A program made the translations under genes and the position numbers. 33,360 nucleotides of DNA, from positions 1 to 33,360 of IMG/VR virus record IMGVR_UViG_3300030450_001534. One strand, given 5' to 3'. This document shows, in pieces, positions 24,942 to 30,352 of this stretch. Position 1 is the first letter of the stretch. Each line of letters opens with the position of its first letter. The notes under the pieces were generated by a model. It had not been told where the DNA came from. It searched no databases and worked only from the letters and a program-made list of their open reading frames with translations. This DNA is from a virus.

Positions 24942-25265
24942 ATGGAAAATAAAAATGAAGAAAATAAAAACATATCTAAAGAAAGCCTGGGAGAAGATCA
25001 AGAAATTTCTCAAAATGTTATGGGGGAAAATAACATCCCTATTCAAAGGCAAGCCTTCCAAGTAGATCTACCAGACGGTAGAAAGGTGAATACTGAAACA
25101 ATGAGTGATGATCAATACAGGGTTGCAACAAGTTTACAGTTTTTACAACGCCAAATAGAAGAACTATCAAGACACGTTGCAGAGTTCAACATGAAACAAG
25201 ATCATTTCAGATTAAAACAAAACGAATTACAAAATATGATTCCACCAGATGGAAAGCCAAGCTGA
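24942..25265 (+). CDS. Coiled-coil hypothetical protein
   Basis: A 107-residue charged protein. Residues 1-35 are Asn/Glu/Lys-rich and disordered; about 60-100 are helical (VATSLQFLQRQIEELSRHVAEFNMKQDHFRLKQNELQNM), likely a coiled coil. It has no membrane segment. AAGGAG lies 11 bases before the ATG. It overlaps the next coiled-coil/membrane gene by 17 bases, so the two may work together, perhaps as tail or lysis accessory proteins. The function is unknown. Confidence 0.65.
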   Translation: MENKNEENKNISKESLGEDQEISQNVMGENNIPIQRQAFQVDLPDGRKVNTETMSDDQYRVATSLQFLQRQIEELSRHVAEFNMKQDHFRLKQNELQNMIPPDGKPS

Positions 25266-25431
25266 AACAATAACAACACTAGAAGCACATCAGCGTGAGA
25301 ACGCTATTCGCTTCCAGTACATAGAAGACAGGTTAGACGAAGGATCTGCTAAGTTTAAAAGATTAGAAACCATAATATGGGGGATCTACCCTGTATTAAT
25401 TACCGCCCTTATAGCTACCAGGTATATGTAA
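25249..25431 (+). CDS. Small coiled-coil plus transmembrane protein (XhlA-like layout)
   Basis: A 60-residue protein: residues 1-40 are helical and charged (ETITTLEAHQRENAIRFQYIEDRLDEG), and residues 42-58 (LETIIWGIYPVLITALIATRY) are a single membrane segment. The layout matches XhlA-type holin accessory proteins and many small phage membrane proteins with a cytosolic coiled coil. No ribosome-binding site is obvious, and the 17-base overlap with the upstream gene suggests translational coupling. The end overlaps the nuclease start (TAATG). Confidence 0.65.
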   Translation: MESQAETITTLEAHQRENAIRFQYIEDRLDEGSAKFKRLETIIWGIYPVLITALIATRYM

Positions 25432-25859
25432 TGTATGAATACGCTTGTGAGGTTGAAAGAATCATTGATGGGGATAGTTTGGTGGGCGTGTTATGCCTTG
25501 GTTTCGATGTTAGTTTTAAGTCTAGTATTCGCCTATATGGTGTTGATACTCCTGAGTCACGCACTCGCAACAGGGATGAGAAGGCTAGAGGACTACTGGC
25601 TAAAGATTTCTTAAAAGACTCAATAGAAAACGGCAAGAAGATTGTCATAAAGACAGAGTTAAAAGATTCCAGGGGCAAGTTTGGTAGAGTCCTGGGAACA
25701 ATTTGGGTGGACGGAGTAAATATCAATCAAGCGTTAATAGATAATCACTTGGCGGTTGCTTACTTTGGCCAATCAAAAAAAGACGTTGAAGACGAACACA
25801 TGGTAAATCGTCAGAAACTAATAGATCTAAATATATTTAAACCAGAGGTGCAAACATGA
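25431..25859 (+). CDS. Thermonuclease-family (SNase-like) nuclease
   Basis: A 142-residue protein starting at the TAATG overlap (25431), not at the upstream in-frame ATG. It matches the staphylococcal nuclease fold: CEVERIIDGDSLVGVL carries the first calcium-site aspartate, IRLYGVDTPESR gives the active-site Arg, second Asp and Glu, and SRGKFGRVLGTIWVDG gives the second Arg. All key residues are present, so it should be active on DNA or RNA. No secretion signal is evident. Located between membrane genes in the late region, it could degrade host or competitor DNA, or act during entry if packaged; its role here is not established. Confidence 0.85.
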   Translation: MYEYACEVERIIDGDSLVGVLCLGFDVSFKSSIRLYGVDTPESRTRNRDEKARGLLAKDFLKDSIENGKKIVIKTELKDSRGKFGRVLGTIWVDGVNINQALIDNHLAVAYFGQSKKDVEDEHMVNRQKLIDLNIFKPEVQT

Positions 25860-26041
25860 GACTAGCAGATACATATTACGAAACAATTAAATACATTTCA
25901 CAGAAGATAAGAGGTGTTGAAGATAAAGAAGTTAGGGCCAGAACAGATGAAGGTAAATTTGTTGCTGATGATCCTACAACACCAGAAGTTAATGAAGCGT
26001 ATAAAACTGTAGAAGTAAAAAAGAAACCTCGTAAGAAATAA
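25856..26041 (+). CDS. Small charged hypothetical protein
   Basis: A 61-residue protein beginning MRLADTYYETIKYISQKIRG, with a helical N-terminus, an acidic middle with DDPTTPEVNEAYK, and a basic end (VEVKKKPRKK). Its ATG overlaps the nuclease stop (ATGA), indicating coupling. I do not recognise a family. The close link might mean it modulates the nuclease, but that is speculation. Confidence 0.6.
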   Translation: MRLADTYYETIKYISQKIRGVEDKEVRARTDEGKFVADDPTTPEVNEAYKTVEVKKKPRKK

Positions 26042-26047
26042 TTAAAA

Positions 26048-27169
26048 ATGAATAAAAACATTCATCAATTAATGTTTTTTGGACTTATATCTTTTAGTGT
26101 TGGTCTATACGCTGATGCACCAGACCAAACTGGAACGGGTTGTGCTAATGGTACGCAGTATTGTGAAAACAATAACTTAAATACAACCAATTCCACCACG
26201 ACTAATAATACCAACACCAATTCCAACACCAACGTCAACACTAATTCTAATACCAACGTCAGCACTTCTACGGCTACTAACACTAATAATTCAACTACAA
26301 ATGCAACTAATTCTAATACCAACGTCAGCACTTCTACGGCAAATAATAATAACGTAAACACTACGACAGCGACTTCAACAGCTACGACCAATAATACGAA
26401 CCAAAATAATAATGTTAATACCTCTACATCAACATCTGATTCCACAGTAAATTCAACCGTTAATCAGACTGTTAATAACAACAGTACTTCTGAAAATACC
26501 AACACGAATATAAATCAATCGAACAGCGTTAGTAACAGCACAAACGTAAACAAAAACGAAAGTAAGTCTGAATCAAACGTACAAACGAACAACGTAAACA
26601 ACAATAACACTAAATCAGACAATACAAATAGGAACATTAATCAGAGTAAATCAGAACAGACTATTAACCAAAATATTAAAACCGAAGCGCCACCTGCTAG
26701 TGCAATAGCACCAAGCATTATGTCTTATTCACAAGATCTTTGTACGGTTGGAAGATCAGGGGCGTTTCAGGGCCAGGTGTTTGGTATATCTGGCGGAAGA
26801 ACAGTTACAGATGAAAATTGCGAAAGATTAAAATTAAGTAAATATATCTATGATATGGGTATGAAGGTTGCAGCCGTTTCCGTGCTTTGCCAAGATGCCA
26901 GGGTGTTCCAAGCAATGGAAATGGCAGGCACTCCATGTCCTTACATGGGTAAAATAGGCAAAGACGCTTCCGAAGGTTGGAAAGCTAATCCTTCACAAAG
27001 ACCTGATGCTAAAGAATACAAAGCTAATTGGATAGCTAACTGTAAAAAAGGATTAAATCCCAACGACACAGGGTATAACAAAGATATTGTAAGCGGTGTA
27101 AGAAAGGTTTTGACTAAGAAAACTAAAACCACCAAACAATGTAAAAAAGAATGGAACAATGCCACATAA
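26048..27169 (+). CDS. Exported Asn/Thr/Ser-rich repeat protein
   Basis: A protein of about 373 residues with three parts. Residues 1-22 are a signal peptide (LMFFGLISFSVGLYA, likely cleavage after LYA). Residues about 42-205 are almost entirely Asn, Thr, Ser and Val, in patterns such as NTNSNTNVNTNSNTNVSTST, later with Lys, Glu and Gln. Residues about 218-373 are a compact domain, IMSYSQDLCTVGRSGAFQGQVFGISGGRTVTDENCERLKLSKYIYDMG..., with six cysteines (from about C231 to C364) that could pair in the periplasm. I have a vague memory of related C-terminal domains in marine phage genomes, but no known function. Possible roles are an envelope-modifying, exclusion or lysis-related protein, or a virion surface component. 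Confidence 0.75.
   Translation: MNKNIHQLMFFGLISFSVGLYADAPDQTGTGCANGTQYCENNNLNTTNSTTTNNTNTNSNTNVNTNSNTNVSTSTATNTNNSTTNATNSNTNVSTSTANNNNVNTTTATSTATTNNTNQNNNVNTSTSTSDSTVNSTVNQTVNNNSTSENTNTNINQSNSVSNSTNVNKNESKSESNVQTNNVNNNNTKSDNTNRNINQSKSEQTINQNIKTEAPPASAIAPSIMSYSQDLCTVGRSGAFQGQVFGISGGRTVTDENCERLKLSKYIYDMGMKVAAVSVLCQDARVFQAMEMAGTPCPYMGKIGKDASEGWKANPSQRPDAKEYKANWIANCKKGLNPNDTGYNKDIVSGVRKVLTKKTKTTKQCKKEWNNAT
26240..26340 (+). repeat. In-frame 66-base duplication in the Asn-rich gene
   Basis: A 35-base sequence (starting ACTAATTCTAATACCAACG) occurs exactly at 26240-26274 and 26306-26340, offset by 66 bases or 22 codons. It keeps the reading frame and encodes a TNSNTNVSTSTA unit twice. Exact identity over 35 bases, with more degenerate repeats around it, indicates recent expansion by slippage or unequal recombination. 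Confidence 0.85.
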
Positions 27170-29471
27170 AGATGAATGGCAAACTTGGTGTTTTGTAGGC
27201 AGTTTAATTTTATCAAGCATTTTTGCATTAGGCCTTAACAAACTACAAGCTGAATACATATATGAAGCCAATCAATCTTTATATCATTTACAAACTAACG
27301 CTAATAATTATGAAGGAGAATTAGCTTATTCAATTTCAGATGATGGGGTTTCTCCTGCTATAGATCTGTCTTTTAATTTTACTTTCTACGGAGAAACATT
27401 TAATCAGGCCAGAATAGCAACCAATGGCTGTTTGCATTTCAAAACAAGCGGATCTTATTGTAACGACTATACCCCAGATCCATTAACAGGACAGCATACT
27501 TATACTTTATATCCTTTTTGGACAGACTTAATTAGAGACAACAACTCAAGAATAAAGTCTTGGGGTGATTCTTCTAAAATGATTTTTGGTTGGTATGATT
27601 TAAGGGAATATAACAGAAGCAATACAGACAATAGTTTTGAAATAATCCTTTGGCCAAATAATACATTTGAATATAGATACGGTGGGTTAAATGTAATCAA
27701 CCATGATGTATTAATTGGAGAAATTGGAAGCGGTACATCACAAAGTTACACCTATTTATACCATGACGAATGTAGTACAGGCACAACTAATTCTAGTTCT
27801 TGTGTGAACACTAATTGGAATAACACTTCATCTAATACTGCGCTAGAAGATGGTGGCTCTTTGTATGGAGTAGGAACAGGTAATTCTATAGATTGTAGTG
27901 ATCCATTAAACAATCAATCTTGTTCTGGTTACGCAGCAGCTTACCTAACGCAGCAATGTAATATTACACAGCTTTACAGCGAATCCTGTCCTTCTTATTG
28001 GGAAGCCTATGATGATCAACAATGTAGTGAAGACTCGCAATACGCGCCCTTCTGTGCAGGCTATACGCAAGAAGCGTCAGTAGCTTATTATTTTGAAGAA
28101 GAATTTGATTATGGTTATCAAGATGATATGCAAGGTGGCAGTTTTGGTTTTGATGATAACTTTGGTTTTGAAGAAGATGTTTTTACTTACATAGAAGAAT
28201 TTGATTTTGAATCTAATGAAGAAGTATTTGTTTTTGAATACGAAGATGTATTTGTTAATGGTGGCTTTGAAGAACCTTTTTCTGATGCAATAGATCCATT
28301 GCCAGATTTTAACGTGATTGATGATGTTTATGAAATACAACTATTTGATGAGCCTGAGTTTTTGTTGTCTTATGATGGGTTTGAAAGAAACGATGCAATT
28401 ACAATTAACCCAAGCGAAGAACTTATAGAAGAATTTGTATTACAAGAAACCGTTTTGATAGAAGATTTTGAACAAATTAATACATTTGTAGAATTTGAAA
28501 CTATTGAAGAATTAGATGAATGGCTTGAAGAAGAATTATCAGAGGAAACAGAAGATCCCCAAGAAGAAATAGAAGAACTTTACGCCGAAGAAGAAATATT
28601 TGAAGAAGAAGCTGTAGAAGAAATATTTGAAGAAATAGAAGAACAGTTTGCAGAAGAAGAAAGAGTTGCTTTAGAAGAAAGAGAAGATGAAATTCTTGAA
28701 GAAGAAACAGAGTTAATTGCCGAAGAAAGAACATCAAGAAGTGGAATAACATCAACTATGTTAAATGTTGTTGGACAATCCATAAGAACGGCATCTAACA
28801 GTAATTCTTCTAGCAGTTCTGCTACAGGATATTCAAGCGGAAACAACAACAGTAGTGGTACTGGCGGTATGAATAGTGGTGCTGTAAGTTCTTCTGTTAC
28901 AGGTAGTGGAATAAGTACAAGCAGTTCACCCAGTATGTCTGACCAAATAGCTTCTGCTAATGTGCAAACAAACACTATTCTTTCTTTAAGCCAAGACACA
29001 AGCAGTATGTCAGGTGGTAGTTCACAAACAGTCAGTAGTGTTTCTACAGTTATAACACCCATGCCAACATTTGATAATAACCCACAAGTAGTTATGGCAG
29101 ATGTCCAGGTACAAAATATGCAAGGTGAAATAAATACAGCAGTATCAGGAGTAATGACAGCTAGTGAAGCTGACCAAATAGCTGACGAAATTATTGCTAA
29201 TAATATAAAAGAACAACAAGAACAGGCAGAAACAGAACAACAAGAAACAGGACAATACGCAGACCAGTCTACATTAATAGCTTATTTAGGATATGTACCG
29301 TCTTTTGAGGTATATAAAACTTATGAAATACCTAAACAAGAAACCTGGTATCAGTCTAAAGATATTTATAGCGATATAAGCATAAGTGATAATGTTAGTG
29401 GCTTTTATGATTTAGCAAGTAACAATATAAATTTGATGAATAATATGATTAAACAACAACCTAATTTATAG
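27159..29471 (+). CDS. Large exported protein: NIDO-like domain, Cys repeats, acidic region
   Basis: A 770-residue protein. Residues 1-31 read as a signal peptide (FVGSLILSSIFALGL, then LQA). About 50-205 resemble a nidogen-like/extracellular beta domain (DLSFNFTFYGETFNQARIATNGCLHF, later YPFWTDLI). About 246-305 hold repeats of roughly 22 residues with paired cysteines (C246/C255, C267/C277, C289/C299) and a GY..AY..QQC motif. About 308-460 are acidic and rich in Phe and Tyr. About 455-525 are mostly glutamate. About 543-635 are Ser/Gly-rich. The last 130 residues are helical, then aromatic. It overlaps the previous exported gene by 11 bases. An envelope or cell-surface role is likely; the exact function is unknown. 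Confidence 0.75.
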   Translation: MPHKDEWQTWCFVGSLILSSIFALGLNKLQAEYIYEANQSLYHLQTNANNYEGELAYSISDDGVSPAIDLSFNFTFYGETFNQARIATNGCLHFKTSGSYCNDYTPDPLTGQHTYTLYPFWTDLIRDNNSRIKSWGDSSKMIFGWYDLREYNRSNTDNSFEIILWPNNTFEYRYGGLNVINHDVLIGEIGSGTSQSYTYLYHDECSTGTTNSSSCVNTNWNNTSSNTALEDGGSLYGVGTGNSIDCSDPLNNQSCSGYAAAYLTQQCNITQLYSESCPSYWEAYDDQQCSEDSQYAPFCAGYTQEASVAYYFEEEFDYGYQDDMQGGSFGFDDNFGFEEDVFTYIEEFDFESNEEVFVFEYEDVFVNGGFEEPFSDAIDPLPDFNVIDDVYEIQLFDEPEFLLSYDGFERNDAITINPSEELIEEFVLQETVLIEDFEQINTFVEFETIEELDEWLEEELSEETEDPQEEIEELYAEEEIFEEEAVEEIFEEIEEQFAEEERVALEEREDEILEEETELIAEERTSRSGITSTMLNVVGQSIRTASNSNSSSSSATGYSSGNNNSSGTGGMNSGAVSSSVTGSGISTSSSPSMSDQIASANVQTNTILSLSQDTSSMSGGSSQTVSSVSTVITPMPTFDNNPQVVMADVQVQNMQGEINTAVSGVMTASEADQIADEIIANNIKEQQEQAETEQQETGQYADQSTLIAYLGYVPSFEVYKTYEIPKQETWYQSKDIYSDISISDNVSGFYDLASNNINLMNNMIKQQPNL

Positions 29472-29480
29472 GAGAAAAAT

Positions 29481-29825
29481 ATGGAATGGTTTGAAAATAA
29501 AACTACACAGATAATAGCTTTGGTGGGTATCGTTGGTACTTTGGCAGGCTTTGGGTACACAGGTGCTACTTATGTGAATAGATTAGAAAATCTTGAAGCG
29601 CAGATAGGCGGTATTGGAGATACAGAAAACGCTCAACAAATAATAGAAGAACGCTTTGCTAGTATAGAAACTCAAGTTACATACTTAGAAAAACAAATTA
29701 ACAGCATAAAAATACCTGACAATAGCGATATACAGGCTTCTGTTGCTTCTTTGACAAGTGATGTTGAAAGAATTTGGATTGAATTAGATAAATTAGAAGA
29801 TAGCACAAATCCTTTAGCTAATTAA
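29481..29825 (+). CDS. Membrane-anchored coiled-coil protein
   Basis: A 114-residue protein. Residues 9-30 (TQIIALVGIVGTLAGFGYTGAT) are a membrane segment near the N-terminus. Residues 33-110 are helical with heptads (YVNRLENLEAQIGG, IEERFASIETQVTYLEKQINSI, VASLTSDVERIWIELDKLED). This spanin- or Rz-like topology also fits other envelope coiled coils. It has GGAG 7 bases before the ATG and follows the large exported gene closely. It could be an inner-membrane spanin subunit, but no partner lipoprotein is visible, so this is unproven. Confidence 0.65.
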   Translation: MEWFENKTTQIIALVGIVGTLAGFGYTGATYVNRLENLEAQIGGIGDTENAQQIIEERFASIETQVTYLEKQINSIKIPDNSDIQASVASLTSDVERIWIELDKLEDSTNPLAN

Positions 29826-29878: not shown

Positions 29879-30352
29879 ATGAAAGAATTATTAAAAGGCG
29901 TTATTGGTGCTGTAGCACCAACAATAGGTACTGCCCTTGGTGGGCCAATGGGCAATATGGCAATGAATATGGTTTCTCAGGCGTTGGGATGCAAGAACAC
30001 ACCAAAAGATGTTGAAAAAGCTGTGCAGAACGCCACGCCTGAGCAGCTTGCAGATCTAAAAAAGATTGATAATGATTTTGAAATCAAGATGAAAGAATTA
30101 GACGTAGATCTATTTGCCCTGGAAACAGCAGACATACAAGGTGCTAGATCTATGTTTGCGAGAGATTGGACGGCTAGAATCATAGGTGTTGCTGTTATTG
30201 GTGGCTTCATGGGTTATATATTTCTAGTAACCATACAACCACCAGAACAAAATTCAGAAGCATTAATAAACCTAGTTCTAGGTTATCTAGGTGGCCTGGC
30301 TTCTGCCATCATATCTTTCTACTTTGGTGCATCGCACTCTAAAGATGATTAA
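29879..30352 (+). CDS. Holin, three-helix gene-transfer-agent type
   Basis: A 157-residue membrane protein that should set lysis timing. The N-terminus (GVIGAVAPTIGTALGGPMGNMAMNMVSQALG) is hydrophobic. A soluble middle (about 42-92) has TPEQLADLKKIDNDFEIKMKELDVDLFALETADIQGARSMFARDWTAR, the signature of GTA_holin_3TM proteins. Two membrane segments follow (IIGVAVIGGFMGYIFLVTI and LINLVLGYLGGLASAIISFYFG), then a short charged tail. There is no Shine-Dalgarno sequence and the promoter is immediately upstream, so the mRNA may be leaderless. It overlaps the endolysin gene by 8 bases. Confidence 0.9.
   Translation: MKELLKGVIGAVAPTIGTALGGPMGNMAMNMVSQALGCKNTPKDVEKAVQNATPEQLADLKKIDNDFEIKMKELDVDLFALETADIQGARSMFARDWTARIIGVAVIGGFMGYIFLVTIQPPEQNSEALINLVLGYLGGLASAIISFYFGASHSKDD

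Follow-up and report, generated by a model that had tools for sequence, protein, structure and literature searches.

A cassette of three genes, here called A, B and C, recurs in fixed order in phages of several lineages, moves between them, and in close relatives gives way to a phage curli cassette. It is real, widespread and undescribed. We tentatively propose that A-B-C is a mobile accessory cassette that builds a structure in the cell envelope and does the job of phage curli. Under this proposal, which we hold with less than full conviction, A-B-C could be a second surface-fiber or envelope system, unrelated in sequence to phage curli and interchangeable with it, marine phages carrying one of the two and never both. 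If this is true, A-B-C represents a second, unrelated viral means of remodelling the surface of the infected cell.

The window, by which we mean the whole stretch of DNA analyzed, is an IMG/VR virus record of 33,360 bases. Its structural genes are lambda-like (GpA terminase, lambda-family portal, HK97-type capsid, and J-like tip protein), and its spike gene encodes an S74 chaperone domain. It carries no tRNA, and thus gives no hint of the host from that side, and a DNA search of phage records with its sequence returned no match. A first-pass annotation had drawn attention to seven ORFs at 24942-29825 occupying about 15% of the genome. These ORFs are present, all on the + strand; neighbors overlap or are separated by no more than 9 bases, and together they cover 4,884 of the 33,360 bases (14.6%). 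The predicted SNase (25431-25859, + strand) is the only one of the seven with a confident Pfam family (E 5e-15), and it also matches a PHROG endonuclease (2e-32). Its start is likely 25431 rather than 25377, which gives 142 aa, the length of the closest relative; the 18 extra residues (25377-25431) are read within the overlap with g2. The earlier description of an Asn-rich exported protein, an exported protein of 770 aa and a membrane coiled coil fits what we find in A, B and C.

Gene A (26048-27169, + strand, 373 aa) has a signal-peptide-like start, an Asn/Thr/Ser-rich repeat and a C-terminal helical domain (~26681-27037) with four Cys that are conserved in the domain alignment. The repeat consists of 37.5% Asn and 29% Thr, and its Asn residues are enriched at lags 2, 4, 6 and up to 12 and depleted at odd lags, i.e., they occupy every second position, a pattern as in extended beta strands. 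The helices of the C-terminal domain are predicted by AlphaFold with pLDDT above 90, and the domain belongs to phrog_20531 (14/14 members, best E 6.5e-17), a family without a described function. The putative export of A and B was read from the sequence, and inspection by eye found no lipobox in either.

Gene B (27159-29471, + strand, 770 aa) combines a signal-peptide-like start, a beta-sandwich (~27255-27878; AlphaFold pLDDT 70-93) and a Cys-rich stretch in which many Cys are conserved. Its linker is long and acidic, its C-terminal motif (~29340-29405; WY..k.IY....DN) is conserved, and an alignment of 71 sequences has invariant residues at both ends. It matches no Pfam family above the cut-off, and a search with the protein returned no match. 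Structure searches with A and with full-length B gave no confident PDB match, an absence of little weight given that the full-length models are mostly of low confidence; in BFVD the strong matches are solely to unnamed or uncharacterised phage proteins. B had been called NIDO-like. Its N-terminal domain does resemble those of NIDO proteins (PF06119) in being a predicted extracellular-type beta-sandwich, but it differs in that no family model matches it: there is no PF06119 match in the window at E<=10 or in seven MAGs, and no NIDO among the Pfam matches. In the fold comparison the best PDB Z score was about 5, a weak value, and to unrelated enzyme domains. Membership in the NIDO family was rejected on the missing PF06119 match, and literature searches on Asn-rich or NIDO phage proteins yielded nothing relevant among the papers covered. 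There are two classes of B, completely different at the N-terminus: NIDO-like in the window and carbohydrate-binding-like in SAR11 phages, of which that of MedDCM S28-C10 has a sub-threshold CBM_4_9 match. The C-terminal motif is common to both classes, weakly (profile E 0.002-0.02, versus 0.16-0.71 for control pairs).

Gene C (29481-29825, + strand, 114 aa) has an N-terminal membrane span, a coiled coil and, in the alignment, a C-terminal Asn-Pro-Leu (NPL) motif. This motif, which served to recognize C in our counts, lies close to the C-terminus in 187 of 4,710 control ORFs of similar size, and 185 of these 187, in 178 loci, are membrane proteins; it is practically confined to C genes.

Which genes form the unit? 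Searching IMG/VR with B gave 393 pattern matches, of which 368 were relatives, and 80 loci were fetched. Neighbor counts refer to these 80 other loci, leaving out the window and its own sub-locus, and order counts take in solely loci on contigs of sufficient length. A lies immediately upstream of B in 63/63 testable loci and C immediately downstream in 70/71, the exception (L060) having C on the other strand. The remaining neighbors come and go, at varying positions on either side of the trio: g1 occurs at 1 locus, that of the nearest relative, g0 at about 7, g4 at about 27, g2 at about 30 and SNase, a frequent but non-obligatory neighbor, at about 51. Among SAR11 phages with the second B class, A is at most 700 bases away in 23/31 loci and C in 33/34. 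Five of the eight such loci without A in range were inspected: in four, A sits a little farther upstream and two small genes intervene, and the fifth ends at the contig edge. At the lone locus without C in range, an ORF ending in NPL lies a little farther downstream. The full A-B-C order was found in at least 126 loci among the A-domain matches listed, at least 600 in number. Given this recurring order and the comings and goings of the other genes, the unit is A-B-C. The seven genes had been regarded as one tightly coupled set and as a candidate undescribed system. Both views hold for three of the seven, A, B and C, which recur in the same order and co-vary across hundreds of phages, and fail for g1, g2, SNase and g4.

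Hundreds of IMG/VR stretches carry the trio, as do isolated phages of Pelagibacter and Roseobacter. Among the isolates, the A-B-C order is found in the myovirus Mosig and in the Pelagibacter phages HTVC033P, HTVC202P, HTVC023P and Baldr, and it also occurs in the uncultured MedDCM S28-C10 (Autographiviridae). B is different in the Roseobacter phages CRP-207 and CRP-810, and in HTVC115P the third gene is a variant that lacks the NPL tail. That variant resembles not C but one of the two small genes that lie between A and B in some SAR11-type loci (L189:5315-5916, L193:3818-4431, and L214:5297-5913), which encode a membrane coiled coil of about 130 aa ending in NGN and a protein of 71 aa. In isolated phages, nearly all genes of the trio are labelled hypothetical. 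We found no cellular home for the cassette: a search of 84,980 cellular genomes gave the A domain at only 19 loci, on MAG contigs assigned to very different phyla, and these look like phage sequence that was binned with host genomes.

The cassette moves as a block. A, B and C of the window are 83-94% identical to those of L004, L005 and L007, whereas identity is 32-63% for the spike and 44-67% for SNase, and no relative of the window lysozyme was found in these three loci. L005 combines a Terminase_6 terminase with an SU10-type portal, unlike the GpA terminase and lambda-family portal of the window, and it is this high identity across unlike terminase and portal families that reveals the movement. 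The cassette is also accessory, because many related phages carry neither it nor curli.

The relatives without the trio, found by anchoring on neighbor genes instead, carry something else at its site. In close relatives of the window, the slot after SNase and before the g8-lysozyme pair is occupied by a phage curli (type VIII secretion) cassette made of CsgF, CsgG, a curlin-like protein, FecR and usually a CHASE2 cyclase. Pfam matches in L301 are at 3e-16 for CsgF, 4e-45 for CsgG, 2e-10 for FecR and 2e-18 for the cyclase; the curlin-like protein has no Pfam curlin match, and we take it to be such from its position and from published phage cassettes. The sharpest case of the swap is L307, with the order J, spike, g2, SNase, curli genes, g8 and lysozyme, and with flanks highly similar to those of the window (identity of 79% for J, 77% for the spike, 78% for g2, 82% for SNase, 90% for g8, and 77% for lysozyme). 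A second lineage shows the same replacement between L301 (curli) and L058 (A-B-C), whose terminases are 94% and Rz/Rz1 78-80% identical. The flanks of the exchangeable slot lie outside the cassette. On the left is g4 (25856-26041, + strand, 61 aa), whose homologues sit immediately ahead of the curli cassette in L325 and others. On the right is the holin-like g8 (29879-30352, + strand, 157 aa; phrog_1544, of unknown function), with 90-93% identical homologues directly after it in L305-L307. The small coiled-coil proteins g1 and g2 (24942-25431, + strand), likewise outside the cassette, are also found beside curli cassettes. A joint action of nuclease and envelope proteins, as first imagined, finds little room here: SNase has no visible signal peptide, is often missing or elsewhere, and is kept in L307 after the replacement by curli.

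The two cassettes exclude each other. No locus has both, and no relative of phage CsgF, CsgG or FecR was seen in any A-B-C locus. CsgG (PF03783) was found in 0/38 long A-B-C records and 0/9 isolate genomes, by a search that matched the control genomes and two curli phages. Conversely, A was found in 0/28 curli or curli-lineage records, in a search without its own positive control but with a model that finds A in six MAGs. In the named records, curli occurs without A in HTVC008M and Melnitz, and A without CsgG in Mosig and eight others. Counting loci with enough flank, the first anchor gave 18 with A-B-C, 4 with curli, 1 with neither and 0 with both, and the other anchor 1, 16, 4 and 0, respectively. 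The pooled Fisher test (p = 3e-8) overstates the exclusion, since relatives are not independent and two sets were pooled. A third lineage with the swap, sought using the M15 peptidase of HTVC023P as anchor, was not found, and most loci there have neither cassette.

Phage curli offers the closest comparison. It has been described in pelagiphage and methylophage myoviruses and in podoviruses (PMC7029224, PMC9004378, PMC9599517), including HTVC008M, Melnitz and HTVC023P-type pelagiphages, and is reported to be widespread in ocean viruses and absent from the known SAR11 and OM43 hosts. Besides sharing a slot with A-B-C in two lineages, it is likewise a multi-gene exported or envelope cassette with a polar repeat protein and a small membrane coiled coil, spread over several phage lineages, and its FecR resembles B in being a secreted beta-domain protein with an acidic stretch. 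A-B-C differs in that no relative of CsgG, CsgF, a curlin repeat or the cyclase was found in it, and it has no recognisable pore and no visible sequence relation to phage curli; in Pfam, none of its three proteins matches CsgF or curlin. Proposed roles of phage curli include aggregation or "sibling capture," defense against superinfection, and a pore for uptake or lysis (PMC7029224, PMC9599517, PMC9004378). Some curli cassettes (L307:4019-6962, L306:2254-6969, L325:1598-6796, and L301:1935-6718) lie inside the lysis region, their carriers being relatives of the window's lambda-like phage and an Rz/Rz1-carrying group. Small proteins upstream of curli in two of these loci (L301:1314-1864 and L307:3663-4019), which match no Pfam family, have an N-terminal membrane span and a coiled coil in a C-like layout. 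A CsgG-like gene is also carried by OR851715.1, an unannotated Salmonella phage record of 1,499 bases that is perhaps host rather than phage DNA.

How might A-B-C work? Expression is probably late, because many phages have the cassette within or close to their lysis region. A and B would reach the periplasm through the host Sec pathway; the Asn/Thr repeat of A could provide a beta-rich, fiber-like part, and the mature N-terminus of B a binding domain adapted to the host. C may be the inner-membrane anchor of the assembly, with its Asn-Pro-Leu tail in the periplasm. The assembly would then lie within the infected cell's envelope or on it, most likely altering surface contacts with other cells or phages. 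We suggest the same purpose as curli because A-B-C replaces curli and likewise includes putatively exported proteins, among them one with a polar repeat. This functional link rests on position and exclusion, and we regard it as about evenly balanced. Its main weakness is that A-B-C has no recognisable outer-membrane pore, which leaves the route of A or B to the outside unexplained. Several further points count against it: the function of phage curli is itself only proposed, the cassettes lie at different places in Mosig and HTVC008M, and HTVC023P-type relatives mostly have neither.

The proposal has practical consequences. As an unrelated cassette at the curli site, A-B-C gives an independent handle on phage curli function, since a trait shared by phages with either cassette, and lacking in relatives that have none, would be the likely benefit. 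Cultured hosts and phages exist for a direct comparison, namely Pelagibacter HTCC1062 with HTVC033P, Baldr or Mosig on the A-B-C side and with HTVC008M on the curli side. In addition, "hypothetical" protein families in hundreds of marine viral contigs can now be seen as parts of one unit with a role open to testing.

Surface remodelling and superinfection exclusion were among the functions first suggested, and the curli swap lends them indirect support. Exclusion or receptor masking without any fiber is a less probable reading than ours, though a serious one. The N-terminal domain of B would bind a surface or periplasmic target of the host and block the adsorption or entry of other phages, or the sticking of progeny to debris, with A and C merely positioning it. 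That the proteins are exported, and that this domain varies among phage groups while the remainder of the cassette is kept, fits such a role, as does the superinfection defense proposed for phage curli (PMC9599517). However, it gives no role to the long repeat of A. To our knowledge, known exclusion systems usually need fewer than three conserved genes. Neither killing of competitors nor a known anti-phage defense system gained support from the comparison with PADLOC defense families, where A and C have only weak coiled-coil or low-complexity matches (E >=0.01) and B none.

Mutual exclusion could also reflect one insertion site for unrelated cargo. Phage accessory genes often have insertion sites in common, and some loci have neither cassette, so that A-B-C and curli may be functionally unconnected occupants of a permissive slot. 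We consider this unlikely: it is always this pair of cassettes that alternates, in two lineages unrelated to each other, and the exclusion holds even in records where they lie at different places.

Slightly less likely still is an accessory role in lysis, as a trans-envelope device that times or completes the rupture of the outer membrane. An endolysin was detected within 3 kb in at least 34 of the 66 loci with 3 kb of flank on both sides, and C is laid out like an inner-membrane spanin, with an inner-membrane span, a periplasmic coiled coil and frequent closeness to lysis genes. Yet C matches the spanin model only weakly (phrog_739, E 0.13), A-B-C has no lipoprotein partner of the Rz1 kind, and its relatives carry separate Rz/Rz1-type spanins alongside (phrog_739 and phrog_812, E 1e-10 to 1e-15). 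A-B-C is thus not the spanin pair, and C was ruled out as a spanin. Moreover, the cassette does not adjoin endolysins in Mosig, HTVC202P and Baldr, and many relatives lack it. Finally, virion proteins for entry, also suggested at first, are very improbable despite the nearby tail spike gene and the beta-sandwich of B, because A and B have cleavable-looking export signals and many conserved cysteines; the cassette also moves between phages of unrelated structural genes and is missing from close relatives.

Two observations concern C and its surroundings. Genes annotated as lysozyme in CRP-207 (L088:3292-3873) and CRP-810 (L089:7162-7584) encode C-family membrane coiled coils ending in ADNPL and KNPLGR, respectively; the annotation looks wrong, and the endolysin count leaves out the CRP-810 gene. 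Directly 3' of C, and often overlapping it, some loci (L048:7579-7749, and also L128, L035, L040, and L045) encode a putative lipoprotein of 55-78 aa with a lipobox followed by EW.D.YD...WR, which may be an optional fourth member of the cassette.
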